This document shows positions 2,033 through 32,244 of a stretch of DNA of 32,244 bases, piece after piece (the stretch's first letter is position 1; each line of letters begins with the position of its first letter). The position numbers and the translations under genes are program-made. The stretch comes from a virus. The stretch is taken from positions 1 through 32,244 of the IMG/VR virus record IMGVR_UViG_3300013126_000135; one strand, written 5' to 3'. The notes beneath the pieces are model-generated. The model worked only from the letters and a program-made list of their open reading frames with translations, was not told the DNA's origin and did not search any database.

Positions 2033-2359
2033 TTATGGGTGACGGCGCAGCGGTCTCCGCCGTCACCCCTAACCCTTTGTTATTCTTGAATAGGTGACGA
2101 CGTGACGGCGTGACGGCGCATTGTGCATGCATGCGCACATGCACTTGAAGTCTCGGCGCACTGCTGTTTCGGTGTCACGCCGTCACCTATTGAATGATTC
2201 CACGCCTTTATGGGTGACGGCGGAAAAATCCGCACCTGAGATTCCTTTATCATCTTGCGCCTTTATGGGTGACGGCGCCGCCGTCACCCCTAAGTCATTG
2301 AATGCACGTTCTGCCCTAGTGTTCTCGCGTGGTTGCCGGTGACGGCGCCGCCGTCACCG
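2033..2359. repeat. Cluster of 11 GTGACGGCG iterons, candidate replication origin
   Basis: The 375 bp between 1991 and 2365 hold no supported gene but contain 11 copies of a 9-mer GTGACGGCG (one variant). Forward copies start at 2039, 2094 (variant), 2102, 2110, 2214, 2269 and 2339. Inverted copies lie at 2058-2066, 2178-2186, 2279-2287 and 2349-2357. Three forward copies overlap head-to-tail with an 8-bp period (2094-2118). Two pairs form near-perfect palindromes with 11-bp arms around one base, at 2267-2289 and 2337-2359. A longer unit CGCCTTTATGGGTGACGGCG occurs exactly at 2203-2222 and 2258-2277. An A/T-rich stretch (2070-2093) lies inside. The cluster directly follows the primase/helicase gene. 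Iterons beside a replication initiator are a classical origin design; operator sites for an early regulator are the alternative. Confidence 0.7.
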
Positions 2360-2365
2360 TGTCGC

Positions 2366-4753
2366 TCAGTACCGATCCCAGCCCCTGCTCGAACTCGGCG
2401 CAGGGTCCTGCTGCTGGCTTTGCGCTGTCCTCTCTGCGTAGTAGACCCGGCCGAGCTTGCCCTTGTGGCCCTGCACCCCAACGTCGCGCAGGGCCTGCAC
2501 GATCCGGTGGGTCTCGGTCGGGCTCGGCGTCTTGGTCGCAAAGCTCGGAAGTGCGCGGCAGATCTCCGCCAGGCTCACGCCACGCGGTGGCCTGGTCACG
2601 TCGAAAGGGGCGCAGGCCTGCCAGTGGTCGCGCACCTCGGCTGCCAGTGCGTCGTCCGGCTCGTGGTCGCTGTTCACCGCGCTGAGCCGCGCCAGCTCGT
2701 CGTCGTCCAGCCACCACCGGGCAGACGGTTGGCGGGCCTCGACCGCCATCTGGGCCCAGAGCTGCTGCACGTCGATCCCGTGCTCGGGGTGGCAGCGCTC
2801 GATCGGCACGGTCCACCAGCGTCGGTTGCCGGTCTTGTCCACCAGGTAGTGCTCGGGATTGACGCTGGCGAAGAACGCCGTGCGCCGGATCACCCGTTCC
2901 TCTCGTCGGGCGTAGGCGCTACGATAGGTATCGCTCTCTTGCGTGACAAAGGCCTTCAGCGCCGCGATGTCGCTGCGCTTGAACGTGGCGTCTACCTCGC
3001 CCAGCTCGCAGAGCCAGACGCTCGTGGCGGCTTGCACGCTGTCGCGGTCTCTGGGGTCGAGCATGCGCCCGGTCAGCACCCACGCGCTGCCGGGTGGTGC
3101 CAAGCTGCGCAGCCAGCGGGTCTTGGCCCTCCCCTGCTCGCCCTGGAACACTAGAACGCCCTGAGCCGCAAAGCGCCCGTCGAAGTCGGGCAGGATTGCT
3201 GCCGCCGCGCCCACCAGCCAGCGGTAGATCAGCAGGCCGCACAGCTCCCGATCCTGCACGCATGCCTGTAGCTCGACGCTGGCCAGCAGTTCGGGCAGCC
3301 GGTCCACGCCATCCCACGGCTTGCTCTGCACCCACTGCAGCACCGGGTGGTACTCGCGGGCCAGCTCGTTCAAGTGCTTGAGGATCGGCGCCCGGGCCAG
3401 TCCATGCTCCGCCGCCCTGTTCTCCACCCAGTCGAGCGCCACGTTGGCGCTGCGCTCCTGGTGTACCTTGAAAGTTGGGATCTGCACTTCCAGCTGGTGC
3501 GTCATGAGGTTGTAGCGCACCTCGGCCCCAAAGTGCTGCAGCAGAGCCGCGGTGTTCCTCGCATGGTCCTTGACCGGCTTGCCCCGCTCGCGCACCGGAA
3601 AGGTCAGCCGCCCGGGCTTGTTTGTTTGTGCGTCGAGCTTGTTTGTTTGTGCGTCGAGCTTGTTTGTTTGTGCGTCGAGCTTGTTTGTTTGTGCCGGCGC
3701 CTCGCGCTTGCGCGTGGGTGCTGATCCTCGCGCCGTAGGCGCAGCCGGCGGATCGTCGCCGTCGTCGAAGAACGGCCGGTCCTGCAATCCGATCCCGGTC
3801 TGTTCTGCTTCAGCTCGCCACTGAGCTGCGCCCTCCTGCAGCTCGGCCGTGTAGCCCCCGCCACCTTCCATCGGCCGCTCGGCTTTTGGGCCGCCCTTGC
3901 CCGAGCGCTTGGCGCTCTGCAGCTTCTGGCGCAGCTCGGCCTCGCCCCACGGGGGCGCGCAACGGGCATTCCACTGCCACAACAGTGCCCAGGCCTCCGC
4001 GTCGTGCAGCTCGAAGTCGTGCACCAGCGTGCATGCGGTGACGAACGTGTGATCGTCTCCGCGGGCGCCCTGCACGGCGCCGTCGCGCTTGGCAATCCAG
4101 GCCTCGGCACGCACAAGCCGCCGATCCTCGCTCCTGCCTCGCTTCAACCTCGCTTCACCCTCGCTTTGTGCTGGCTGCATCAGCTCGGGTTGTTGCGCCT
4201 GCTGGCTCGGCAGCCATGCCAGATCAAACACCGGGATCGACTCGACCGGCGGCAGCGGTCCATCGAACGCCCAGCGGTACAAGCCGCCAGACGGGTGCAC
4301 GCTGCCCGGCAGCACGATCTGGCTGCCGTCTCCGTACAGGTCGCCGCCTTGGTGCACCACGCTGCGGTCCTTGCGGCTGTCCGGCAGGTGCGGCACCTCG
4401 AGCTTGCGCTTGGGAACTGGCACGCCCACCGGCCAGCGGTAGATCAGGTGACCGCCATGCCCGCTGCCGCTCACCGTGCGCAGGGGCGTGGGTGGAAAGT
4501 GATCGAGCGCCCAGGCCAGCCACGCGTCGCCGTCCAGGTCGAGCGCCACCCAGCCAGTCGCACCGCAAATCAATCCCACGTTGGCGTCGGGGTGCTGGCC
4601 CCAGTACGCCCGCACGTCCACCTCTGTCATGCGCAGTTGCTGCCAGCCCTGCACGGCCGGCGCCTTGTCGCGTGGTCGCAGTGGGTGGATCGTCAGTCCG
4701 TAGCTCAGCAGTTCCAGAGCGGTCTGCTGCATTGTTGGTTTTTTATCAATCAT
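2366..4753 (-). CDS. Primase-polymerase fused to VirE-type helicase (replication initiator)
   Basis: This 795-aa replication protein has two parts. The N-terminal part (about residues 10-190) resembles the bifunctional primase-polymerase (AEP) fold, with PLRPRDKAP near 25-32, the metal-binding DLDGD at 72-76 and GGDLYGDGSQIVLPGS. The C-terminal part (about 395-720) is a virulence-associated-E/D5-like ATPase with DWVENRAAEHG upstream, a P-loop GEQGRAKT at 538-545, and the family signature DKTGNRRWW. The P-loop has Ala where most relatives have Gly just before the Lys. A low-complexity linker with repeated LDAQTNK lies between (about 354-379). The start is ATG at 4753; the in-frame TTG before it is less likely. 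It likely primes and unwinds phage DNA at the iteron block that follows it. Confidence 0.88.
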   Translation of the reverse strand: MIDKKPTMQQTALELLSYGLTIHPLRPRDKAPAVQGWQQLRMTEVDVRAYWGQHPDANVGLICGATGWVALDLDGDAWLAWALDHFPPTPLRTVSGSGHGGHLIYRWPVGVPVPKRKLEVPHLPDSRKDRSVVHQGGDLYGDGSQIVLPGSVHPSGGLYRWAFDGPLPPVESIPVFDLAWLPSQQAQQPELMQPAQSEGEARLKRGRSEDRRLVRAEAWIAKRDGAVQGARGDDHTFVTACTLVHDFELHDAEAWALLWQWNARCAPPWGEAELRQKLQSAKRSGKGGPKAERPMEGGGGYTAELQEGAAQWRAEAEQTGIGLQDRPFFDDGDDPPAAPTARGSAPTRKREAPAQTNKLDAQTNKLDAQTNKLDAQTNKPGRLTFPVRERGKPVKDHARNTAALLQHFGAEVRYNLMTHQLEVQIPTFKVHQERSANVALDWVENRAAEHGLARAPILKHLNELAREYHPVLQWVQSKPWDGVDRLPELLASVELQACVQDRELCGLLIYRWLVGAAAAILPDFDGRFAAQGVLVFQGEQGRAKTRWLRSLAPPGSAWVLTGRMLDPRDRDSVQAATSVWLCELGEVDATFKRSDIAALKAFVTQESDTYRSAYARREERVIRRTAFFASVNPEHYLVDKTGNRRWWTVPIERCHPEHGIDVQQLWAQMAVEARQPSARWWLDDDELARLSAVNSDHEPDDALAAEVRDHWQACAPFDVTRPPRGVSLAEICRALPSFATKTPSPTETHRIVQALRDVGVQGHKGKLGRVYYAERTAQSQQQDPAPSSSRGWDRY
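3617..3694 (-). repeat. 3.7 copies of an exact 21-bp tandem repeat inside the primase gene
   Basis: Exact 21-bp units run at 3617-3637, 3638-3658 and 3659-3679, followed by a 15-base partial copy to 3694. They encode the heptad LDAQTNK, repeated in the linker between the primase-like and helicase-like domains. The repeat is in frame, so copy-number change would alter only linker length. The Asn/Thr/Gln-rich composition differs from the surrounding Ala/Arg/Pro-rich protein. Confidence 0.95.
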
Positions 4754-4769
4754 CAAGCAACCTTGGTGG

Positions 4770-5036
4770 TTAGATTGCGCCGAAAGCCGTGCGGTTGATC
4801 ACGCCCACGGCATCGCGCCGCGCTGTAGCCGGTGGGCGTGGTTGTGTCGCCCGATCCCAGCCATCTGCTCGTTCAATGGCTCGCAGCGCGTCGGCCCACG
4901 TTGCTGCCCGGCCTGCACCCAGCTCGCGGCGGGTGCGCACGTTGTCGGGCTCGTCGTAGTAGTAGCACTGCCAAGCAAACGGCGCCTCTTGCTTCGCGGT
5001 GGTGCGCGGTGCCGGTGCCCTAGACATCAACGCCAT
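4770..5036 (-). CDS. Small protein of unknown function
   Basis: This is an 88-aa frame between the VRR-NUC nuclease and the primase. It begins with ATG at 5036 and overlaps the nuclease stop by 17 bp; a second in-frame ATG lies at 5027. The central stretch FAWQCYYYDEPDNV and ADALRAIERADGW looks like ordinary globular protein, and the Pro/Arg/Thr-rich N- and C-termini look disordered. The ribosome site is weak (GGAAGG about 11 bases upstream), so translation may be coupled to the nuclease gene. No family is recognised. Support comes from the tight packing and lack of a competing frame. Confidence 0.55.
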   Translation of the reverse strand: MALMSRAPAPRTTAKQEAPFAWQCYYYDEPDNVRTRRELGAGRAATWADALRAIERADGWDRATQPRPPATARRDAVGVINRTAFGAI

Positions 5037-5346
5037 GGCGCTTCAGTCCTTCCACGGCCTCGTCCACGCTGGTCACCACCAGGTAGATCCCGCCGTGCCG
5101 CTCGACCATGGCCTGCCAGGCACGTTGCAGCTCGGTCTGGCGCCCGCCACGGCGCTTGACCTCCAGAGCTACCAAGCGCCCGGCCGGGCTGGCCACACCC
5201 AGCAGATCGGCGCTGCCGGGCTGCCCGTAGCGCACAAGCTGGCCGCGCTGGTCTACCAGTGCGCCCGAGTTGTTGCGCCAGACGGTCAGCCCGGGCAGCG
5301 CGCCCAGGCGGGCCAGTATCTGCTGCTGGATCGCCTGCTCCCGCAT
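5020..5346 (-). CDS. VRR-NUC family nuclease
   Basis: This 108-aa protein matches the compact VRR-NUC (PD-(D/E)xK-related) phage nuclease. It has RNNSGA near residues 24-29, GxPGSADLLG with D47, then LVALEVKR with E62 and K64, and a downstream helix (RAWQAMVERHGG). D47, E62 and K64 are the expected metal-binding and catalytic residues. Members of this family cut structured DNA such as Holliday junctions and flaps, and are common in phage replication modules. The start is ATG at 5346, overlapping the preceding stop as TGATG. Placement between unknown replication genes and the primase supports a role in processing replication or recombination intermediates. Confidence 0.9.
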   Translation of the reverse strand: MREQAIQQQILARLGALPGLTVWRNNSGALVDQRGQLVRYGQPGSADLLGVASPAGRLVALEVKRRGGRQTELQRAWQAMVERHGGIYLVVTSVDEAVEGLKRHGVDV

Positions 5347-5816
5347 CAGTGCACCTTGAGCTCGCCGCTCGCCACCATGCGCCGCAGCTTGTGCAGAGCC
5401 AAGTTGCCCTTGCACTGCAGATTGAGCTCGAGATGCACCGGCAAGATCTCGAGATCGCCGCTCAAGTCGTGCAGCACCAACTTGGTCAGCAGGTCAAGGT
5501 CGCGCCGCTCACGCGGATCGACGGCAAAGCGCACCGTCACCTCGTAGTTGAGCACCACGCTGTCGTCCAGGTTCTTGTGCTCGACCTTCCACTTGCGCCC
5601 GACCACGTGGGCCCGCGCCACCTCGACCACGCCCAGCAGGGACACCAATTCCACGCGGTCGTCCTTGAGCCGCTGCACCACCTCGTCGCCCACCTGGCGC
5701 AACGCCTGCATGGGCGTGTCCTCTGGCGCCTTGCGGCTGCCAAACTTCAGCTCGACGATCCCGGCCTCGGGCAGCTTGCCCCCGGCCATCCACACCTCTC
5801 CACTCCAATCAGCCAT
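5346..5816 (-). CDS. Unknown protein of the replication module
   Basis: This 156-aa protein begins with ATG at 5816 (TGATG overlap with the previous stop), behind GAGAGGAAG; a GTG one codon earlier is possible. The sequence alternates predicted beta strands (VELVSLLGVVEVARAHVV, VVLNYEVTVRFAV) with a helix and contains no motif I can name. The N-terminal WSGEVWMAGGKLPEAGIVELKFG reads as a strand-rich start. It overlaps its neighbours on both sides by one base, so it is translated with the winged-helix protein and the VRR-NUC nuclease and probably works with them. No function is assigned. Confidence 0.72.
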   Translation of the reverse strand: MADWSGEVWMAGGKLPEAGIVELKFGSRKAPEDTPMQALRQVGDEVVQRLKDDRVELVSLLGVVEVARAHVVGRKWKVEHKNLDDSVVLNYEVTVRFAVDPRERRDLDLLTKLVLHDLSGDLEILPVHLELNLQCKGNLALHKLRRMVASGELKVH

Positions 5817-6367
5817 CACTTCCTCTCTGGCAGGGCGTACACCCCGCGGTCAATGCGGCGGATCTCGCCGCGGTTGCACATCTGCTTGAGCAGGGTTTGC
5901 ACGCTGTCGCGTGTCGTCCTGCGCTTGGCCACCAGCGCCTCGATCAGCTCGGCAGCCGTCGCCTGCTTCTTGTCCTGCAGCAGCACCAGCACGGCGCTCG
6001 CGTGTCTTGGCTGCTCGGTCCAGTCCGATCCCTCGTCCACCGCCGAACGGCGCCGGCCCTTGTTGGCCTCGCGCTGCTGCTCTTTGTCCAGCTCGACACG
6101 CTGATCGATCGGCTGCCGAGCTGCCGGCCATGGTGCGCGCTCGTCGGCCTCGAGCTCGGCCAGCTCGGCCTCATGATCCTCGCGGTCCAACTGTTGCAGA
6201 TTCTGCAACACCTCGGGCGGCAGCGCAGGTGCCTGCTCTGGCAGCAGCCACTGGCGCAGCTCGGCCTCAAGCTCCTGCCGCCGCAGTCGCACCCTGCTCA
6301 GGTCAGTGGTCAGTTGCCTGTCGCTCTCGATCAGCTCCGCCAGCTCTCGAAGTTGTTGCGGTGTCAT
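5816..6367 (-). CDS. Coiled-coil protein with C-terminal winged-helix-like domain
   Basis: This 183-aa protein starts with ATG at 6367, overlapping the previous stop (TAATG). Residues 1-90 are strongly charged and helical (ELAELIESDRQLTTDLSRVR and a Glu-rich run), which suggests a coiled coil. A charged linker follows (about 90-120). The last 60 residues (ASAVLVLLQDKKQATAAELI to RIDRGVYALPERK) have the helix-helix-helix-wing pattern typical of winged-helix DNA-binding modules that end in a GVY-type strand. It may be a DNA-binding accessory or regulator of replication. Its position beside the helicase and nuclease genes supports a DNA role; the fold call is by eye. Confidence 0.72.
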   Translation of the reverse strand: MTPQQLRELAELIESDRQLTTDLSRVRLRRQELEAELRQWLLPEQAPALPPEVLQNLQQLDREDHEAELAELEADERAPWPAARQPIDQRVELDKEQQREANKGRRRSAVDEGSDWTEQPRHASAVLVLLQDKKQATAAELIEALVAKRRTTRDSVQTLLKQMCNRGEIRRIDRGVYALPERK

Positions 6368-6783
6368 TAGTTGGCCTCCTGCTCGATCGTCGTCTTGGCC
6401 GTCTCGACCGCGTGGCGCAACAGCTCGTACTGGCGCTTGGCATCGCGCTCGACCGTCGGCCAGAACTGGTTGGCCTGCACCCAGCGCTCGAGCACCGCTG
6501 CCGTCAACGGGGCCGGTGGCACCTGCTGCACCATCAGCATGGCCAGAGCCAGCCGCAGGTGCGCGATCACCGGGGTGGTGGGCATCAAGTCGGCCTGCCG
6601 CAGAGCCACCAGGGCGCCGGCCACCAGCTGCACGTTGAGCTCGCGGGCCGGCTTGCCCTGCACCGCCATCGTGCCCAAGCCACCGATCAGGCCGCCCAGC
6701 ACCGCGATCACGCGGGCACGCACCTGCTGCTCGCCGCGCAACCGGATCTCGTCTCGGTACACCGGGATCATGCTCGCTTCCAT
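6367..6783 (-). CDS. Helical protein of unknown function, replication module
   Basis: This 138-aa protein starts with ATG at 6783, chosen for the strong site GGAGGCAAAGGA just upstream; an in-frame ATG at 6771 has a poorer site. The gene overlaps the helicase end by 16 bp. The N-terminal part holds a Gly-rich hydrophobic stretch (VIAVLGGLIGGLGTMAV, about residues 25-41), which could be a buried helix or a short membrane segment. The remainder is helical with VERWVQANQFWPTVERDAKR-like character. I do not recognise it. Possibilities include a helicase loader or a structural adaptor, but nothing in the sequence decides this. Confidence 0.7.
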   Translation of the reverse strand: MEASMIPVYRDEIRLRGEQQVRARVIAVLGGLIGGLGTMAVQGKPARELNVQLVAGALVALRQADLMPTTPVIAHLRLALAMLMVQQVPPAPLTAAVLERWVQANQFWPTVERDAKRQYELLRHAVETAKTTIEQEAN

Positions 6784-8117
6784 TCCTTTGCCTCCAATCT
6801 CAGGGCGTACTGCGCCCAGGTCCACCCGGGCTTGTAGCCCCTCTGCTGCCGCTCGGTGTCGATCTGGCGCCACAAGTGCCAGTCGATCCTGCGCTGGGCC
6901 GTCCGGTCTGGCCGGCCTTCCATCTGCTTCAGCTCGCCCGCCTGCACGGCTGGCGCTGCCTTGGTTCCTCTCGAGACCACCGCGTAGCACCGCGGGCACG
7001 TCAACGGACGTGGGTGCGCCGGGAGCACGGCGAAGCACTCTTTGCACGTCAGCAGGGCCAGTGCGTCGCTGGCCTTGCCCCGCGGCTGGCCGCTGCCCGG
7101 GTCGTACTCCAGCGGCTCGTCCACCGGCCCGAGCCGGGCCCAGTTGCCGCCGTGGTCGAGCACCACGCAGTCGGCCTTGCCACCGTGCAGCCGCAGGCCT
7201 CGACCCACCGCCTGGCGCCACACGATCACGCTCTGCGTCGCCCGCGCCACCACCACCGCCGACACCGCCGGATTGTCCCAGCCCTCGATCAGCAGATCGG
7301 CGCTGCACAGCACTTGCAGGTCGCCCACCTCGTGCCGCTCGAGCAGCCGGGCCCGCTCTTGCTTGGGTGTGCCCGCGCTCACCACGGCAGCAGCCACACC
7401 GCGGGCGCGCAGGGCCTCGGCCACGTGCTGGGCGTGCTGCACACCGCTGGCGAACACCACGCCGCGCCGATCGCCGGCCCAGCGCTCGAACGTCGCCGCC
7501 ACGTCGCCCACCAGCTGGGGCCGGTCGAAAGCTTGCGCCAAGTCACCCGGGGCGAAGTCGCCGCGGGCCGTCCGCACGCTCGACAAGTCGGCGCCCGGCA
7601 CGCTCCAGTAGACCGCCGGCACCAGCCAGCCCGCCGTCGTCAGCTCGCCCACGGTCGGGCCCTTGATCGTGGTCGAAGCCACCGCGTCGAACCGGGCGCC
7701 GTCGCTGCGCCACGCGGTGCCAGTCAGCAGCACACGGAACGCATGGGGCCACAGCTCGAATACCTTGCGGTAGCTCGCCGCCATGGCCCGGTGGCCCTCG
7801 TCCACCACGATCACCGCGGGCGCGTCGGCCCTCTCGGGCATCCGGCTCTGCACCGTCCGCAGCACCAGGTGGTCGCTGTCCAGAGCCCAGTCCGGGCCCA
7901 CGGCGCCCAGCGTGTTGCGGGCCTGCTGCAGCAGCTCGCGACGATGCGCCACCCATAGCACCCAGCCGCCCATGCGCAGAGCGCCGGCCACCACGCTGCA
8001 TGCGGTCACCGTCTTGCCGGCACCCGTGCCGAGCTCGAGAATCGCGCCCTCGTGCCCGTCGCAGTACGCCTGGCGCAGCTCGTCTACGGCTCGCTGCTGG
8101 TAGTCTCGCAGTTCCAC
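6768..8117 (-). CDS. SF2 DEAD/DEAH-type helicase
   Basis: This 449-aa helicase starts with GTG at 8117, behind AAGGTGGCGGC. Motifs run in order: RDYQQRAV at 4-11 (Q-like), Walker A GTGAGKT at 30-36, DEGH at 106-109, TGTAW at 132-136, a second RecA-like domain with LLIEGWDNP, and motif VI QAVGRGLR. Two cysteine pairs near the C-terminus (CKEC and CPRC) form a likely zinc finger. This arrangement is seen in phage relatives of RadD/UvsW-like helicases, which remodel forks, R-loops and recombination intermediates. The start lies inside the upstream XRE-like gene (34-bp overlap), so the two are probably translationally coupled. Confidence 0.93.
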   Translation of the reverse strand: MELRDYQQRAVDELRQAYCDGHEGAILELGTGAGKTVTACSVVAGALRMGGWVLWVAHRRELLQQARNTLGAVGPDWALDSDHLVLRTVQSRMPERADAPAVIVVDEGHRAMAASYRKVFELWPHAFRVLLTGTAWRSDGARFDAVASTTIKGPTVGELTTAGWLVPAVYWSVPGADLSSVRTARGDFAPGDLAQAFDRPQLVGDVAATFERWAGDRRGVVFASGVQHAQHVAEALRARGVAAAVVSAGTPKQERARLLERHEVGDLQVLCSADLLIEGWDNPAVSAVVVARATQSVIVWRQAVGRGLRLHGGKADCVVLDHGGNWARLGPVDEPLEYDPGSGQPRGKASDALALLTCKECFAVLPAHPRPLTCPRCYAVVSRGTKAAPAVQAGELKQMEGRPDRTAQRRIDWHLWRQIDTERQQRGYKPGWTWAQYALRLEAKEWKRA

Positions 8118-8302
8118 GCCGCCACCTTCACTTGGCCCGCACTCATGGCCTCAATCCGGCGGGCTTGCTCGACCGGGATCGGGCGCCGGCCGGCCAGCCA
8201 ATGGCTGAGCAGACTAGGGTGAACCCCCAGCCGCTCGGCCAGCCAGCCGGCCCGGCGCCCCTCGGCCTGCAGCCACGCCTTGCACTCGTGCTGCTGGTCC
8301 AC
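8084..8302 (-). CDS. Small XRE/Cro-like helix-turn-helix regulator
   Basis: This 72-aa protein starts with GTG at 8302 behind AGGAG (8-base spacing). Residues about 16-42 (WLAERLGVHPSLLSHWLAGR then RPIPVEQARRIE) form a classic XRE helix-turn-helix, close in style to YdaS/Cro-type proteins. It should bind an operator as a dimer. It lies inside the early unit and overlaps the helicase start by 34 bp, and no divergent repressor gene accompanies it. It could autoregulate the early promoter at 11.2 kb, whose -35 box sits in a palindrome, or act on the iteron block; both are inferences. An adaptor role in replication initiation is the alternative. Confidence 0.85.
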   Translation of the reverse strand: MDQQHECKAWLQAEGRRAGWLAERLGVHPSLLSHWLAGRRPIPVEQARRIEAMSAGQVKVAAWNCETTSSEP

Positions 8303-8306
8303 GGTC

Positions 8307-9581
8307 TCAGCTCCTGCGGCGGTTGCTCACCACCACTTCCTCGACGATCGCCACGCCCGGGATCTCGCGGGCGCCCTGGTCCACCGCGTGCTGCACCAGC
8401 GCCAGGTCGGGCCGCCAGTACACATCGGGCACACGGCTGGGATCGGTGATCGTCGCTGTCCACTTGGTCTTGTAGCCCCCGGTGCTCGTGCCGGCCTTGA
8501 CCGGGCCCGGGCCCTGCTCGGCCGCCTCGGCCGCCTCGACCACCGCCTCGTGCACGCGGGCCTCTTGCTGCTCGAGCTGCTGGGCCGCCTGGGCGCTGCC
8601 GGCTTGCGCTGCCGCCGCCAGCTCGGCCGCCTTCTTGCGCTCGGCCTCGAGCTTGCGCTGGGCCTCGGCCTCGGCCTCGCGCTTCTTGCGCAGTTTCTCG
8701 CTGGCATACCGCGCCAGGTGTTGCTCGACGCGGGCCTTTGCCTCGTCGCACGGCTTGGCCACCTTCTCGCGGAACAGCGCGTCCACCTTGCCCGTCACCT
8801 GCTTGATCGGCTCGACCACCGCCTTGCGCTGCGCGTCGGCGTCGGCCTGCAACTTCTTGAGCCGCCCCAAGCCCTCGTGGCCCAGGTTCTCGTCGTCGTC
8901 GTCGGCGCACGTGTAGCCCGCCGCCCACTCGCTGGCAGCTGCCACCCGCGGCAGCAGCGCCTCGGCCTTCTGGCCAGCCATCACCAGCAGCTCGTCGGCA
9001 CTGGCCGGGGCCGGCACCGGCGCCGGGGCCTGCTGCTTGGCGAGTGCGCCCTTGTGGCTGCGGTACGCATAGCGGTGCACGATCGGCTCGACGCAACGGG
9101 CCAGCGTGTCCACGTCGGTGGTCGCCAGGTGCTCGGGCCCACGGATGTCAACCTGCAGCCGCTCGGCCACCGCGCCCAGCGTGTTCGTCGCACCGGGCCA
9201 CAGCTCGCGGGCCATCTTGAGCGTGCAGCTCCACGGCAGAGCTGCCAGTGCCTGCACATCGGCACCCACCCGGCCCGCCTCGGCCAGCACCAGCGTCAAG
9301 TCGAAGTCGAGGTTGTGCACGTACACCGGGCCGTCACAGTCCAGCAGCTCGAGCAGCTGCTGCACGTGGTCGGCGCCGAAACGCGGCATGCGCTCCACCT
9401 TGTCGTCGGTCCACCCGTGCACCTTGGCCGCGCCTTCCGGGATCGGCCGGCCCGGGTTGAACACGAAGTGCAGAGTCTTGGCGAAGGTGCCTCCGTCCCA
9501 AACTCCCGCGAAAAGCTCCACGATCTTGTCGGTTTCCGGCCTCGTGCCGGTGGTTTCGGTGTCCAGAACTGCGAACTTCAT
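8307..9581 (-). CDS. DnaQ-type DEDDh exonuclease fused to a phage coiled-coil domain
   Basis: This 424-aa protein has two parts. Residues 1-190 are a DEDDh 3'-5' exonuclease: Exo I DTETTG with D7 and E9, Exo II HNLDFDLTLV, and Exo III HLATTD with the expected His and Asp. Residues about 200-424 resemble a separate phage protein family of unknown function: a long charged coiled coil (about 255-370), then TKWTATITDPSRVPDVYWRP and REIPGVAIVEE at the end. That second family normally occurs as a free-standing gene near phage recombination proteins. The start is ATG at 9581, behind CACCAAGGAGACACCACC. The exonuclease may proofread or process ends for the phage replication or recombination system. 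Confidence 0.88.
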   Translation of the reverse strand: MKFAVLDTETTGTRPETDKIVELFAGVWDGGTFAKTLHFVFNPGRPIPEGAAKVHGWTDDKVERMPRFGADHVQQLLELLDCDGPVYVHNLDFDLTLVLAEAGRVGADVQALAALPWSCTLKMARELWPGATNTLGAVAERLQVDIRGPEHLATTDVDTLARCVEPIVHRYAYRSHKGALAKQQAPAPVPAPASADELLVMAGQKAEALLPRVAAASEWAAGYTCADDDDENLGHEGLGRLKKLQADADAQRKAVVEPIKQVTGKVDALFREKVAKPCDEAKARVEQHLARYASEKLRKKREAEAEAQRKLEAERKKAAELAAAAQAGSAQAAQQLEQQEARVHEAVVEAAEAAEQGPGPVKAGTSTGGYKTKWTATITDPSRVPDVYWRPDLALVQHAVDQGAREIPGVAIVEEVVVSNRRRS

Positions 9582-9601
9582 GGTGGTGTCTCCTTGGTGA
9601 T

Positions 9602-9615
9602 CACGCTCTCGCGTG
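9602..9615 (-). promoter_or_regulatory. Small hairpin with a GAGA tetraloop ahead of the exonuclease ribosome site
   Basis: In the minus-strand RNA this reads CACGC-GAGA-GCGTG, a 5-bp stem closed by a GNRA-type loop. It lies about 20 bases upstream of the exonuclease start and directly after the tRNA-like element. It could affect translation or RNA stability. Only the fold potential is visible. Confidence 0.4.
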
Positions 9616-9617
9616 GC

Positions 9618-9686
9618 CGGTGGGCGCCGGAATCGAACCGGCCTGGCGGCTGCAACGCCTTTGACCACTGCCCCCGGTGGTGCACC
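9618..9686 (-). other. tRNA-like element, possibly a decayed tRNA-Cys or attachment-site remnant
   Basis: The minus strand holds a perfect T-arm (stem GCCGG, loop TTCGATT, stem CCGGC at 9642-9626) followed by an acceptor-like strand GCCCACC (9625-9619). The 5' side has GGTGCAC (9686-9680), which pairs at 5 of 7 positions, and AGTGGTCAAA like a D-loop. A 4-bp stem with loop TTGCAGC would display anticodon GCA (Cys). The D stem does not pair, the variable region is too short, and total length is about 4 bases under normal. It is not a convincing working tRNA. It could be decayed, a tRNA mimic, or a copy of a host tRNA 3' end as used in attP sites, although no integrase is visible. Confidence 0.4.
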
Positions 9687-9742
9687 CCGTATCGCTCGGT
9701 GCCGCGCTGCCGCCCGTCGCATGGGTCGCGGCAGCCCTCACC

Positions 9743-9892
9743 TCAGCCGGAGCCGTCGCCGTCGCCGGAGCCGTCGCCGTAGCCGTCGCCGGAGCCGGAG
9801 CCGTAGCCGGAGCCGGAGCCGGAGCCGTCGCCGTAGCCGGAGCCGTCGCCGTAGCCGGAGCCGGAGCCGATCGCCTTTTTCACCGCGCCCAT
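9743..9892 (-). CDS. Gly-X repeat ORF overlapping the end of the preceding gene
   Basis: This is a 49-aa frame starting with ATG at 9892, just after GGAGGCGGCGGT, a good ribosome site. It begins MGAVKKAIGSGSGYGDG and continues with Gly at every second position alternating with Ser, Tyr and Asp to the stop. It overlaps the end of the 93-aa gene upstream by 13 bp in the -1 frame. Some relatives of that gene carry such a Gly/Ser/Tyr/Asp tail fused to their C-terminus (from memory), so this may be a detached tail with its own start. It may instead be reached by frameshifting just before the TGA at 9882. The DNA repeat drifts between GGCTCC, GGCTAC and GGCGAC units. Confidence 0.6.
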   Translation of the reverse strand: MGAVKKAIGSGSGYGDGSGYGDGSGSGSGYGSGSGDGYGDGSGDGDGSG

Positions 9893-10161
9893 ACCGCCGC
9901 CTCCACAGACTTGGCGCCCGCCTCGTCGCAGTTGATGATCTCGATCGCCTCGGTCAGCACGATCTGCGACACGGGCGCAGCGATGCGGCTCTTCTTGGGA
10001 TCCAGGCCGGTGGTGGCGATCTCGTTCAGCGTCCACGCGCCCTGCCACTGCCAGATCCGTCGGCTGCGCTCCAGCGTCACTTCCTTGCCGATGCGCTCCA
10101 CCAGGTAGCCGAAGTGCACTCCAGCGCTGTAGGTGCGCACGATCACGGGTTGCTTGTTCAT
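9880..10161 (-). CDS. Small conserved phage protein of unknown function (RTYSAGVHFG family)
   Basis: This 93-aa protein begins MNKQPVIVRTYSAGVHFGYL. With RRIWQWQGAWTLNEI and IVLTEAIEII it has the pattern of a small phage/prophage family that I recall being catalogued as DUF6948. It has no known enzymatic role. The core is beta-rich with a conserved Trp-containing segment. The start is ATG at 10161, overlapping the previous small ORF stop as ATGA. The gene stop at 9882-9880 lies inside the start region of the Gly-X ORF. It sits in the early unit between the ssDNA-binding-like protein and the exonuclease fusion. Confidence 0.8.
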   Translation of the reverse strand: MNKQPVIVRTYSAGVHFGYLVERIGKEVTLERSRRIWQWQGAWTLNEIATTGLDPKKSRIAAPVSQIVLTEAIEIINCDEAGAKSVEAAVWAR

Positions 10162-10256
10162 CTGTCGATACTCCCTTGGTTATGCCCGGTCGTCCGGGCG
10201 GTCAGTTCTGCCATTGCCTCGGCGCGTGCTGCCTGCAGCCACTCGAACGGATCCAA
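10158..10256 (-). CDS. Candidate 32-aa ORF with TTG start
   Basis: A short frame fills the gap between the ssDNA-binding-like gene and the 93-aa gene. It reads (TTG)DPFEWLQAARAEAMAELT, then a short polar tail, and its TGA overlaps the next ATG as ATGA. The amphipathic helix and exact stop/start coupling argue for translation. The TTG start and weak ribosome site argue against. Without it about 100 bp would be empty in an otherwise packed region. Confidence 0.42.
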   Translation of the reverse strand: MDPFEWLQAARAEAMAELTARTTGHNQGSIDR

Positions 10257-10265
10257 TCGCCATCT

Positions 10266-10937
10266 TCAGAACGCCGGGGCCCGCTTCTTGGGCGCGTCCG
10301 CCGGCTTGTCGAGCTTGGCCAGCAGCTCCTGGTAGCGCGCCTGGAGCTGATCTTGCACCGCGTCGTTGCCGTCCGCGTCGTGCCAAGCCCGCTCAAACTC
10401 CGCCCGCAGCTCGTCCTTGTTCATGGCCAGAACCATGCCGCCCTCGAGCTCGGCAGCCGTCACCTGCTTGGCCTGCTGGGACGCCGGCCGGCTCTGCGTC
10501 GGGGCCTGGCGGCTGCTCGAGCTGCTGGTGGCCTGCCGCGCCGGGGCCACACCGGCGGCTTCCATCGCCTCGAGCGTGTCACCGCTGATCGGCCCGTCGC
10601 CGGCCCAGGTGTACGTCGTTTGCGTGTCGCCCTTGCTCCCGGTACGCACCACGATCAGCTCTTGGCTGTACAGCTTCTGCAGGCCAATCGCCCGCTTGAA
10701 GCCAAGCAGGCTCTTGAACTGGCTGCTTCCCATGTCCCACGTCTGGCGCTTTCCGCCCTCGACGTTCCACAGATCGATCGTCCAGACAGTGAACGGCCCG
10801 TTGTTGCCCTCCTTCTCCTGCTCGTCGGGCTCGGTCAGCAGCACGATCCGGCCGGTGTCGCCATCGTCTGCCAGCTTGAAGTAGCGCCCGGTGTTGGCCT
10901 TGTTCTTGTAGCTCTGCTCGCTGTCATCCCATGCCAT
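10266..10937 (-). CDS. Putative single-stranded DNA-binding protein
   Basis: This 223-aa protein starts with ATG at 10937 behind AGAGAGGACACCACC. Residues 1-125 look like a single beta-rich globular domain (ANTGRYFKLADDGDTGRIVLL, FTVWTIDLWNVEGGKRQTWD, then a strand-rich end). A Ser/Gln/Ala-rich linker follows (about 130-165), then a helical C-terminus with DELRAEFERAWHDADGND and a basic end. Domain order, aromatic content and early-unit position fit the OB-fold ssDNA-binding proteins of phages. There is no acidic C-terminal tail of the bacterial SSB type. The call rests on composition and context rather than a diagnostic motif. Confidence 0.55.
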   Translation of the reverse strand: MAWDDSEQSYKNKANTGRYFKLADDGDTGRIVLLTEPDEQEKEGNNGPFTVWTIDLWNVEGGKRQTWDMGSSQFKSLLGFKRAIGLQKLYSQELIVVRTGSKGDTQTTYTWAGDGPISGDTLEAMEAAGVAPARQATSSSSSRQAPTQSRPASQQAKQVTAAELEGGMVLAMNKDELRAEFERAWHDADGNDAVQDQLQARYQELLAKLDKPADAPKKRAPAF

Positions 10938-10978
10938 GGTGGTGTCCTCTCTTGGTGTTGTGCGGCTTGCTGCCGCTG

Positions 10979-11161
10979 TTACATCGGGAAGCCAAGTGCA
11001 TTGAGCACCCAGCACGCTGCCCAGACGCACGCCGCGGCTGTCAGCACTACTGCCCACCCCGCCGGGTCGATCAGCTCTTGCAGATCGTCCTTGACGGTGG
11101 CGAGAAAATCCCCAGCCCAGTCCGGGCCGGGATCGATCGGGTCAGGTTGTTCGGGTTGCAC
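10979..11161 (-). CDS. Small single-pass membrane protein, first gene of the early unit
   Basis: This 60-aa protein starts with GTG at 11161, behind AGAGGAAACCACC. Residues 1-33 are acidic and Pro-rich (PEQPDPIDPGPDW); residues 36-57 (WAVVLTAAACVWAACWVLNA) form one hydrophobic helix, followed by a very short tail. It is the first gene downstream of the promoter at 11.2 kb, about 53 bp from the expected transcription start. Early small membrane proteins in phages often act in superinfection exclusion or host takeover, but nothing specific shows here. TM prediction is by eye. Confidence 0.65.
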   Translation of the reverse strand: MQPEQPDPIDPGPDWAGDFLATVKDDLQELIDPAGWAVVLTAAACVWAACWVLNALGFPM

Positions 11162-26324: not shown

Positions 26325-26723
26325 TCACGCGTTGCCCAGGATCACCTGTCCCGTGCGCGCCATCTCCAGCAGCTGCTCGTCGCGCTCCTTGCGGTCGTCG
26401 AGGAAATCGGCTTTGCGCTTGACCCAGACCTCACAGCCGAGCGGGTAGCCCACCACCTGGTGCTGCCCCTCGAGCTTGATCCAGCCCTTGGCCTCCCACT
26501 TGGCCCGCAGGGTGGCCTTGCGTCCCTCGTCCAGCGCGGGGTCGAGCTTGGCAGCCACCCAGCCATCGGGCAGGCCCAGCACGGTGCCCACCTGCAGCTG
26601 CGCTGCCATGCCCGCCGCTTTCCGCGCAGCTCGGGCCGCCTCCACCTTCTCGGCGCTCGGCATGCGCGGCCCCTGCACGGTGGTCGCGGTCTGCTGCTCG
26701 GGCGCCTCGTTCTTGCTCGCCAT
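26325..26723 (-). CDS. Small head protein of unknown function
   Basis: This 132-aa protein starts with ATG at 26723 behind GGAGGAACC. The N-terminal 40 residues are polar, Gln/Thr/Ala-rich and helical (AEKVEAARAARKAAGMAAQL). The rest has LGLPDGWVAAKLDPALDEGR, a helix KATLRAKWEAKGWIKLEG, and GYPLGCEVWVKRKADFLDD. It lies between scaffold and major capsid, where decoration or minor head proteins are often found. No family is identified. A role in capsid assembly is inferred from position. Confidence 0.65.
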   Translation of the reverse strand: MASKNEAPEQQTATTVQGPRMPSAEKVEAARAARKAAGMAAQLQVGTVLGLPDGWVAAKLDPALDEGRKATLRAKWEAKGWIKLEGQHQVVGYPLGCEVWVKRKADFLDDRKERDEQLLEMARTGQVILGNA

Positions 26724-29629: not shown

Positions 29630-31021
29630 TCAGAAGTGCGGGCGCAAGTTGCCATCTTTACCATCGATCGTCACACCATCGGGGCCAATGCCGTGCCGCC
29701 CCGGAAGTCGGCCGCCGTGCAGCTCCTTGAACCTCGACCCAGCCACCACCGCGTAGCGCAGCGCGTCCACCGCGTGATCGTGGGTGTTGTCCTTGGCGGG
29801 CGTGTCTGTCGGGTTGCCGTCGCGGTCCACCTGGTAGCGGTACGCCGCCATGCTCGGCACGATCCCGGCCACATCGCCGGTGAAGGTCCGCGGCAGCCGG
29901 TCGCTGAACACCAGCCGCGGATCGCCCTGCACCGGCGCCAGCATGTCCTGCACCATCGCGATACCTGAGCGCACGTACTGGTCATGCTTGCTCGTCAGGC
30001 TCAGAACCTGGCACCGGCGGGCGCCGTAGATCTGCCGCAGCCACACGTTTTCCTCGGGCACTGCCCGGTCGGCGCTGATCAGGTACGGAACCTGCCCAGG
30101 CATCAGCTGCTCGATCCACTGCTGCAGGTCGGCCCGGAAGTGCCCACGGCTCTCGGGCTTGCGCACCAGCTCGTCAGCCACCACCCACCGGCCGGCGGGC
30201 GTCACCTGCACCGCCACGGCCACCGCACGATTCAAGCCCCAGTCCACACCGATCACCCACTTGGCTTCCGGGTGGTGCTTGTGCGACCACGGCAACAGGT
30301 GCCGCTGCTCGCGGAATTCTCCGTAGACTGCCGACACCGGCCGCAGCGCCAGAGCCAGGATCTCCTGCTCGTAGCGCCTCACGCTCATGGCCGCCTTCCA
30401 GCTCTCGACCACGGCCCGGTCCAGATACGGGTTGTCGTAGCTCGTGGCCCGCGCCACGTAGAAGTCGGGCGCCGCCTCGAGCTGGCGATCCCGGAACAGC
30501 TTGGTGACCCCGCGCAGCCCGTTGGGGCTCGAGGCCACCGCGAAGCTGGGCCGCGGGCAAGGCACGCGAATGCAGCTTACCAGCGTCTCGTACACCGTCA
30601 GCTCGTCGGCCTCGCTCCAGCAAATCTCGTCGGCGTCCACCCACCCCAGGTTCTGGCCGCGCAGCTTGTCCACCCGCTCGTAGCCCTGCCAGTAGATCGT
30701 GCTGCCATTGTGCAGGTAGATCGCTTGGTCGTCGGCCGAGAAGCGCTTGATCCAGTTGAAGCCCGTGGCGTCTTGCAGGGTCTGCAGGTGGTTGCGCAGG
30801 AACGGCAACAGGTTCTTTTTCAGGTCGCGCTCGGTGCGCCCCAGCAGCGCACCAGGCACGCCCGGGTTGGCCAGCGCCTGCAAAAGCGCGTCGAGCGTGA
30901 GTGTCCAGCTTTTGCCCGCGCCACGCCCCCCCAAAAAGAACCGATTGCGCGATTTTGCTGTCAGGAACTCGGCTTGCTTGCGGTACGGCTTGAACACCGC
31001 CGCCAAGTCCAACTGCTGCAT
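29630..31021 (-). CDS. Terminase large subunit
   Basis: This 463-aa protein starts with ATG at 31021, overlapping the small-subunit stop as TGATG. Walker A GRGAGKS is at residues 32-38, Walker B GWVDADE at 126-132, and the coupling motif SSPNG at 164-168. The RNase-H-like nuclease domain has GVDWG with D260, SADRA with D318, and HDHAVDALRY with D416/D419. All catalytic acidic residues are in place. This is the packaging motor ATPase plus nuclease. Domain order and length are standard for siphovirus large terminases of the Terminase_6 type. Confidence 0.96.
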   Translation of the reverse strand: MQQLDLAAVFKPYRKQAEFLTAKSRNRFFLGGRGAGKSWTLTLDALLQALANPGVPGALLGRTERDLKKNLLPFLRNHLQTLQDATGFNWIKRFSADDQAIYLHNGSTIYWQGYERVDKLRGQNLGWVDADEICWSEADELTVYETLVSCIRVPCPRPSFAVASSPNGLRGVTKLFRDRQLEAAPDFYVARATSYDNPYLDRAVVESWKAAMSVRRYEQEILALALRPVSAVYGEFREQRHLLPWSHKHHPEAKWVIGVDWGLNRAVAVAVQVTPAGRWVVADELVRKPESRGHFRADLQQWIEQLMPGQVPYLISADRAVPEENVWLRQIYGARRCQVLSLTSKHDQYVRSGIAMVQDMLAPVQGDPRLVFSDRLPRTFTGDVAGIVPSMAAYRYQVDRDGNPTDTPAKDNTHDHAVDALRYAVVAGSRFKELHGGRLPGRHGIGPDGVTIDGKDGNLRPHF

Positions 31022-31755
31022 CAGCCCACCTCGATCGCGTCGCCGCCGGCCGGGGCGCGTCCACCAGCAGCCACGCCGGCGGGCAACGGCGCCGGCTCTC
31101 GGATCGCCGTGCTGTCCAGCGTCAACGCCAGCTGCACCTGCGGGCGCTCCTGCCCCTGCGGGCCCTTCAGTTGCAGCTCGGCCAGTCGGGCCGCCTGGGC
31201 GCCCAGCCGATCCATGCGCTCCAAGTAGGTCGCGGTGTCCACCTCGCCGCGCTGGTACGCCAGCTCGAGCACGCGCAGCTGGCGTTGCCACAGCACCGCA
31301 GCGTCAGCCACGCCCACGCCCTGAGCTGCCGCCGCCTCGAGCTCGGCCACGTCGGGCTGGTTGTCCCGGCCCCTGCTCAGCGCCAGCTGGCCACGGGGCC
31401 CGAACTGCTCGGGCAACGTCCGCTCGAGCATCCACGCTGCCGCCCGCCACGCGTCGCGGTCGTCGCTGTTGGCCTTGGCCACCAGCCGCCCCAGCCAACC
31501 CACGGCCCGAGCGCTGCGGGCCTGCTCGACCTCGCGTTGTAGCGGCTGGTATTGCGTGGCCTCGCTCTCCAGCCAGTTGTACAGCGTCTGCTTGACCAGT
31601 CCGGCATGCGCCGCTGCCTGCTCGATCGACGCACCCAGCCGGATCGCCTCAACTATTTTGGAGCGGATCTCTGGCGTGCACTTGGTCGGCCTGCCTGTCT
31701 GGCCGTTTCCTGCGCCACGGTTGGGTGGCTTGCGCTTGGGCTTGCTGTCAGCCAT
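31021..31755 (-). CDS. Terminase small subunit
   Basis: This 244-aa protein starts with ATG at 31755, overlapping the previous gene by 8 bp. The basic N-terminus (KPKRKPPNRGAGNGQTGRPTK) is followed by a helix-turn-helix at about 30-60 (IRLGASIEQAAAHAGLVKQT then LYNWLES), a standard terminase DNA-recognition domain. The rest is helical and oligomerisation-like, with LPEQFGPRGQLALSRGRDNQ near the middle. It binds the packaging site and loads the large subunit. Its place directly before the large terminase is conventional. Confidence 0.9.
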   Translation of the reverse strand: MADSKPKRKPPNRGAGNGQTGRPTKCTPEIRSKIVEAIRLGASIEQAAAHAGLVKQTLYNWLESEATQYQPLQREVEQARSARAVGWLGRLVAKANSDDRDAWRAAAWMLERTLPEQFGPRGQLALSRGRDNQPDVAELEAAAAQGVGVADAAVLWQRQLRVLELAYQRGEVDTATYLERMDRLGAQAARLAELQLKGPQGQERPQVQLALTLDSTAIREPAPLPAGVAAGGRAPAGGDAIEVG

Positions 31756-32014
31756 CGGCCCCCCTCGCGTCGGCCAGACGCCGATAGAAGTCAAGCGCCA
31801 CACGCGAGCCCTTGCCCGCATGCTGCTCGTCCGTTGCTTGCTCGACGGCCGGCGGCTTGCCGTAGAGCGTGAACACCTGGGCGCCCGCCTGCTCGGCCAC
31901 CTCGGCCAGTCGCTCGGCCGCTTGCGCCTCGGCTCGATCTCGAGGCTGCCGGGCTCGCGTGCGCACCAGGTTCACCTCGGTGCCGCCGCCCTTGGGTGGT
32001 CTACCTCGGCCCAT
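31748..32014 (-). CDS. Small basic protein with AT-hook-like start, packaging region
   Basis: This 88-aa protein starts with ATG at 32014 (MGRGRPPKGGGTEVN), behind a G-rich site (GGTGGGGGCTTCA). GRGRPPKGG resembles an AT-hook, a short DNA minor-groove binder. Residues 20-50 are a charged helix (RQPRDRAEAQAAERLAEVAE), then VFTLYGKPPAVEQATDEQHA. It overlaps the small terminase start by 8 bp, so it may assist DNA recognition during packaging. The upstream 50 residues in the same frame look like out-of-frame translation. Confidence 0.65.
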   Translation of the reverse strand: MGRGRPPKGGGTEVNLVRTRARQPRDRAEAQAAERLAEVAEQAGAQVFTLYGKPPAVEQATDEQHAGKGSRVALDFYRRLADARGADG

Positions 32015-32108: not shown

Positions 32109-32244
32109 CGCCCACCACCTTGTCGAGCTGCACCGCTGCCCACCTGGCTGCGCGCCCGGCGCTCACGCGGGCCGCCCATCCCGCTTTGCGTTGCGTAACT
32201 ACGCACGCGGAAAAGAATACGTCCAAATAGTGCGGGGCGAGGCA
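32098..32244 (-). CDS. C-terminal part of an ORF running off the right edge
   Basis: This frame is open from the right edge to a TGA at 32100-32098, 48 codons. It has a protein-like end, PHYLDVFFSACVVTQRKAGW, then AARWAAVQLDKVVGDVW. The stop overlaps the ATG of the 35-aa gene by 11 bp, as is usual here. Its phase matches the frame of the left-edge partial gene across the shared 9-mer, so both probably belong to one gene of about 117 aa when the ends are joined. Confidence 0.5.
   Translation of the reverse strand, partial: CLAPHYLDVFFSACVVTQRKAGWAARVSAGRAARWAAVQLDKVVGDVW
32192..32205. repeat. Short palindrome near the right edge
   Basis: TGCGTA-AC-TACGCA is a perfect 6-bp inverted repeat with a 2-bp centre, about 40 bp from the right edge and about 440 bp upstream of the small terminase gene. 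It could be a terminase- or regulator-binding site. It lies inside the right-edge open frame. Confidence 0.35.
32235..32243. repeat. Terminal 9-bp repeat matching the left edge
   Basis: GGGCGAGGC occurs at 32235-32243 and at 1-9. One further base (A at 32244) does not match C at 10. This may mark cohesive ends filled in by sequencing or a trimmed circular overlap. Chance is unlikely but possible in this GC-rich sequence. Confidence 0.55.

Follow-up and report, generated by a model that had tools for sequence, protein, structure and literature searches.

A convergent iteron block beside a PrimPol-VapE helicase gene is a probable SaPI/PICI-type replication origin in a tailed phage

The origins of PICIs lie directly 3′ of the rep gene, where two iteron sets flank an AT-rich region, an anatomy reported in 2018 to be absent from all other known bacterial replicons (PMC6092414). 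SaPI Rep and Cch2 bind such downstream repeats through their C-terminal domain (PMC7581432). For the plasmid pRN1, an essential stem-loop was described 3′ of a gene that encodes a PrimPol, a helicase, and a winged helix in one protein, and the same was proposed for phage BIP-1 (PMC4234260, 2014). Here, we describe a block of iterons directly 3′ of a PrimPol-VapE primase-helicase gene in a 32,244-bp stretch of DNA (hereafter, the window), which is a whole IMG/VR virus record. We consider this block, with a probability of roughly 0.8, to be a tailed-phage replication origin of the SaPI/PICI type, for which the adjoining PrimPol-VapE protein would act as a self-loading initiator. This reading is built on repeats that greatly exceed chance and occur in one gap only, on the match of the helicase fold to PriRep1, and on the way in which repeat arrays of relatives cluster at the 3′ end of this gene. 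The last two of these lend support to the initial annotation, which had named the block a candidate origin and had regarded the pairing of a primase/VirE gene with iterons as unfamiliar; the pairing is in fact the known SaPI/PICI type.

The iteron, GTGACGGCG, occurs in 10 exact copies (at 2039+, 2058−, 2102+, 2110+, 2178−, 2214+, 2269+, 2279−, 2339+, and 2349−) and in an 11th copy with one mismatch at 2094+, which reads GTGACGACG. All 11 copies fall within 2039-2357, in both orientations, and no exact copy is present elsewhere in the 32-kb record, for which dinucleotide shuffles gave a chance level of 1.4 per whole window. The first iteron lies 8 bp past the stop codon of the primase-helicase gene, and the GC content of the block is 0.58 versus about 0.69 for the whole record. 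Outside the block and a tandem repeat at 9745, no 9-mer in the record exceeds four copies per 330 bp. The tandem repeat (9745-9869) is a degenerate 6/24-bp repeat of AGCCGT units between an exonuclease gene (8307-9722) and a DUF6948 gene (9880-10161).

Within the block, a head-to-tail iteron triplet faces a doublet across 51 bp (Table 1). The doublet contains only one perfect iteron copy, followed at the same 8-bp period by the degenerate GTGACACC, which makes a 12th copy; perfect 13-bp arms (2102-2114 and 2174-2186) enclose a 59-nt loop. The spacer between the two arrays has a GC content of 0.53-0.56, against 0.69 for the record. The weakest DNA directly flanks the arrays: of all 25-bp segments in the record, 2069-2093 is the least stable, and the five weakest segments include another two from the block, at 2187 and 2233. 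The description in the initial annotation, i.e., 11 9-mers in both orientations with an 8-bp head-to-tail triplet, two palindromes with 11-bp arms, and an A/T-rich stretch, all in a noncoding block directly after the primase/helicase gene, was thus accurate on each of these points. Its two exact 20-bp units at 2203 and 2258, which it took as a hint of a longer recognized site, exist as well, but the core probably consists, by analogy with relatives, of the two convergent tandem arrays and not of these units or the palindromes. GC skew, which the initial annotation had suggested as a check, falls steadily across the window with no turning point and is uninformative here because the main reading frames of the record lie on one strand (minus). 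No terminal repeat of at least 12 bp was found at the record ends; GGGCGAGGC is present at both (1-9 and 32235-32243), which may be a short cohesive end or result from overlap in the assembly.

Table 1. Coordinates of the iteron block, its elements, and the adjoining genes in the window, and of displaced arrays in four related loci (positions of the respective locus).
Feature	Position	Strand	Details
Iteron block, proposed origin of replication	2033-2365	none	333 bp, noncoding, GC 0.58
Outer inverted iteron pair	2039-2066	2039-2047 plus, 2058-2066 minus	
A/T-rich segment, candidate melting site beside array 1	2069-2093	none	GC 0.32
Core array 1	2094-2118	+	three head-to-tail iterons, 8-bp period (2094 mismatched, 2102, 2110)
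Spacer between convergent arrays	2119-2169	none	51 bp, GC 0.53-0.56
Core array 2, faces array 1	2170-2186	−	iteron 2178-2186, then degenerate GTGACACC at 8 bp
Second A/T-rich segment, beside array 2	2187-2213	none	GC 0.41
20-bp unit CGCCTTTATGGGTGACGGCG, copy 1	2203-2222	+	contains iteron 2214-2222
20-bp unit CGCCTTTATGGGTGACGGCG, copy 2	2258-2277	+	contains iteron 2269-2277
Palindrome GGGTGACGGCG-C-CGCCGTCACCC	2267-2289	iterons 2269 plus, 2279 minus	perfect 11-bp arms, 1-bp center
Palindrome CGGTGACGGCG-C-CGCCGTCACCG	2337-2359	iterons 2339 plus, 2349 minus	perfect 11-bp arms, 1-bp center
ORF beyond the block, regulation target in a rival reading	1094-2032	−	312 aa, without family match
Primase-helicase gene, proposed initiator	2366-4756	−	796 aa; PrimPol, linker repeat, VapE-like helicase, C-terminal winged helix
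Prim-Pol (archaeo-eukaryotic primase/polymerase) domain	4250-4720	−	PF09250 (Pfam), residues 13-169
VapE-like AAA+ helicase domain	2660-3328	−	PF05272 (Pfam), residues 477-699, E 3e-42
C-terminal winged helix, proposed iteron reader	2435-2650	−	residues about 703-774, predicted structure
Displaced GGTGAC-type array, L007	9069-9316		
Displaced GGTGAC-type array, L009	8356-8652		
Displaced GGTGAC-type array, L016	8337-8599		
Displaced GGTGAC-type array, L023	10589-10763		

The sole PDB sequence match of the primase-helicase was the SaPI5 vapE-like Rep (7pds, E 1.8e-20). An AlphaFold2 model of the helicase half (residues 395-796, pLDDT 89.7) aligned with the structure of SaPI5 PriRep1 with dsDNA (7pds) over 372 residues at Z 25, winged helix included, and the next fold match was the C-terminal region of NrS-1 (6k9c) at Z 14. 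In this model, the winged helix was mostly predicted at pLDDT 85-93 and lay inside the PriRep1 alignment, with a recognition helix at about residues 746-758. Modeled alone, the C-terminal domain gave a mediocre structure (pLDDT 74) that matched mostly winged-helix proteins, at Z < 6. By fold, the C-terminal winged helix is thus predicted to be of the kind that binds dsDNA. Between PrimPol and helicase, the gene carries a perfect 21-bp tandem repeat (3616-3694, 3.8 copies) that encodes the 7-aa linker LDAQTNK. Further replication genes at 4770-11057 encode an exonuclease, a DEAD-type helicase, an SSB-like protein, and a VRR nuclease. The frames scanned gave no match to a replicative DNA polymerase family; synthesis may therefore fall to the PrimPol or to a host enzyme. 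The XRE-like protein mentioned in the initial annotation was not found, the nearest DNA-binding candidate being a weak winged-helix match at 5816-6367.

How does this locus compare with the described systems? With SaPI/PICI replicators, of which SaPI5 PriRep1 (7pds) is the example, it shares a VapE-type AAA+ helicase, a C-terminal winged helix, an AEP primase (fused to the helicase in SaPI5), and origin-like repeats directly 3′ of the gene, and its two iteron sets around a region of lower GC resemble the SaPI/PICI layout in outline. It differs in having its own iteron sequence, a less A/T-rich spacer, and extra perfect palindromes. While a PICI element is defined by a lack of structural genes and by helper use, the window has matches to large and small terminase, portal, head/capsid, and tail genes, and the element is therefore a phage and not a satellite. 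Cch2 of SCCmec offers a further parallel as a self-loading helicase with direct repeats (AAGTG) downstream of its own gene that are bound by the C-terminal domain, but it is unfused, pairs with an A-family polymerase, and has three 5-nt repeats only (PMC7581432). The α protein of phage P4, as described in PMC4234260, is likewise a primase-helicase whose winged helix binds origin repeats, although its primase is of the Toprim type. Compared by fold, the polymerase of phage NrS-1 (6k9c), a phage PrimPol, is the second-best match, much weaker than PriRep1.

The archaeal plasmid pRN1 has, in ORF904, the same PrimPol-helicase-winged helix order in one protein, with an origin 3′ of the gene that contains inverted arms and a loop of about 58 nt, but this origin was described as a stem-loop without iterons (PMC4234260). 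In phage BPP-1, we observed two tandem 9-bp pairs, GTTTGCCTC/GAGGCAAAC, inverted relative to each other on either side of an A/T-rich spacer (L188 2106-2213; about 26605-26712 in NC_005357), 464-572 bp downstream of the PrimPol-D5 primase gene. These pairs are a possible origin, seemingly distinct from the gene-adjacent stem-loop proposed for the related BIP-1. Their layout is of the PICI type with few copies, which leads us to the hypothesis that the stem-loop and the convergent-iteron descriptions may refer to a single kind of origin.

A tblastn search revealed related helicases in 553 phage records, all with a query coverage below 80%. Dereplication at 70% identity of the loci taken from phage records and viral contigs left 34. 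Upon counting repeats along them, we found at least five identical 7-mers per 300 bp in 10 of 34 loci at offset 0, the helicase 3′ end, and in 9 of 34 at offset −150, compared with 0 to 1 of about 30 loci at most other offsets; small secondary peaks appeared about 3.5-4.2 kb upstream and 2-3 kb downstream. Within 500 bp past the stop codon, and allowing one mismatch, 17 of the 34 loci beat all 60 Markov shuffles. Judged in this way, about a third of the relatives had no clear block (e.g., L013, L017, L026, and L184). The initial annotation had raised the prospect of relatives that keep the primase and lack iterons; the trend is the opposite, with arrays at the 3′ end of the gene, even if some loci (L013, L017, and L184) do show none. 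In an outside check, an array followed the helicase gene in seven of eight further isolates, with hosts in Staphylococcus, Streptococcus, Paenibacillus, Corynebacterium, Rhodobacter, and Pseudomonas plus a streptococcal satellite (among them Staphylococcus phage 3A, Streptococcus phage IPP36, Corynebacterium phage SamW, and satellite Javan56); in the eighth, Bacteroides phage SJC11, no array was present after the gene. The array is displaced 2-2.8 kb downstream in Mica, Arya, Persinger, ECO1230-10, and others, and it lies upstream of the helicase gene in SFCi1. In Mica-like and Jilinvirus-like loci, a GGTGAC-type array of the same convergent layout was seen 2-3.4 kb past the helicase gene, within or close to the gap that precedes the lysis genes.

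The motifs differ between lineages, e.g., GTTACGCCT (13 copies in L001), ATGACCAAC (10 in L052), GTGACACCT (10 in L053), and CAGGGACAC (7 in L021). The primase half also varies, being PrimPol or Toprim, while helicase, winged helix, and arrays are kept, which indicates that the arrays are associated with the helicase part. The iteron of the present phage appears private: An exact search of viral contigs with the palindrome gave no matches, and the 15-mer TTATGGGTGACGGCG matched 79 contigs once each with no cluster of three or more 9-mers, as expected from chance. A blastn search with the block returned short low-score matches only. Neither the contig nor the blastn searches yielded a second phage with this iteron or a close relative of this phage, and a scan of genome contigs gave one distant relative only. 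The exact core of this origin hence rests on analogy.

This analogy draws on an anatomy that is common to the loci, namely, head-to-tail sites in two convergent arrays around a spacer of lower GC. Across 26 loci, neighboring sites 7-12 bp apart had the same orientation in 64 cases and were inverted in 8, while sites 60-130 bp apart were inverted in 27 cases and had the same orientation in 4; because the sites were counted as if independent of one another, which is not the case, the corresponding p-values are too small, but the ratios are large nonetheless. The spacer between inverted arrays was below the GC content of its locus in 24 of 24 cases, and the arrays mostly pointed toward each other where the motif has a GTGAC, GGGAC, or GTGCAAC core. 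The core-array spacer of the present phage (GC 0.53) is less A/T-rich than that of most relatives, with its weakest DNA beside the arrays. Among loci, motif similarity tracked protein similarity (r = 0.32-0.39, p ≤ 0.001). For the C-terminal domain, the partial correlation was 0.23 (p = 0.0003) in a larger automatic set and 0.06 (p = 0.26) in a stricter set, and an effect of this domain on the motif also reached significance in one set whose motifs were oriented by hand. These comparisons of sequences are suggestive of the winged helix or C-terminal domain itself setting the motif; given the difference between the larger and the stricter set, we do not claim specificity at the level of the domain.

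In the mechanism that we propose, the C-terminal winged helix would bind the GTGACGGCG iterons, and the triplet at 2094-2118 together with the doublet at 2170-2186 would load two AAA+ rings face to face. The rings would then melt adjacent weak DNA, for which 2069-2093 or 2187-2213 are candidates, and leave as a bidirectional pair, after which the N-terminal PrimPol would make primers, perhaps also some DNA, and a host or phage polymerase would continue synthesis. The outer palindromes and the 20-bp units probably add affinity or control. Some features count against an origin: the single perfect copy in array 2, the less A/T-rich spacer, the displaced Mica-like blocks, and the third or so of relatives without a clear block.

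Could the repeats instead be an operator or regulatory region, at which a phage repressor or activator controls 1094-2032 or the late genes? The block does stand upstream of that ORF, the Mica-like blocks stand before lysis or late-regulator genes, and 5816-6367 might encode a winged-helix regulator. However, the VapE gene is the constant neighbor of the blocks, whereas the gene on the other side varies (nuclease, helicase, or unknown proteins), and the block of SFCi1 lies upstream of the helicase gene. A simple scan of the block region found no sigma-70-like promoter, nor an intrinsic terminator, and 11 sites with two convergent arrays exceed what is usual for an operator. We therefore regard such a regulatory role as unlikely.

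We consider it less likely still that the inverted arrays act, as in pRN1, as a fold on which the PrimPol-helicase assembles and not as sequence-specific sites. The 13-bp arms and 59-nt loop are close to the 21-nt stem and 58-nt loop of pRN1, whose ORF904, with the same domain order, depends on a stem-loop immediately 3′ of the gene and for which specific binding at the stem-loop could not be shown (PMC4234260). Yet, where a pRN1-type origin is a stem-loop of about 100 nt free of iterons, the present block is built of 11 of them, many outside the stem, in both orientations and also as single copies. Tandem arrays whose spacing recurs at 7-12 bp and whose motifs are specific to the lineage are characteristic of binding sites, and the SaPI and Cch2 relatives bind their repeats as duplex (PMC7581432). 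A packaging (pac/cos) site or a partition centromere is very improbable. If the record is circular, the block belongs to the part that precedes the small terminase gene (31021-31821), and ParB-like genes occur in some relatives, but circularity is an assumption for a record whose ends share no repeat of 12 bp or more, no ParB match was found among the window proteins scanned, and neither terminase nor ParB is a conserved neighbor of the block in relatives.

The SaPI/PICI type of origin is itself already known. What is new, as far as our partial search of the literature goes (an earlier report in a subscription journal is possible), is the breadth, with the same layout beside VapE helicases in many tailed phages. 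On balance, we favor the view that a Pri-Rep protein with a convergent-iteron origin at its 3′ end is a common replicator of VapE-helicase tailed phages and not a mark of PICIs, and that private lineage iterons read by the winged helix yield a large set of orthogonal initiator-origin codes across phages and satellites. Because isolated tailed phages from several host phyla have this layout, the argument for an origin anatomy restricted to PICIs is weakened, and phages and satellites may have exchanged replication modules. The layout also offers a simple rule by which origins can be located in uncultured phages with a VapE helicase gene, as well as natural initiator-iteron pairs with which to test how a winged helix reads its site.
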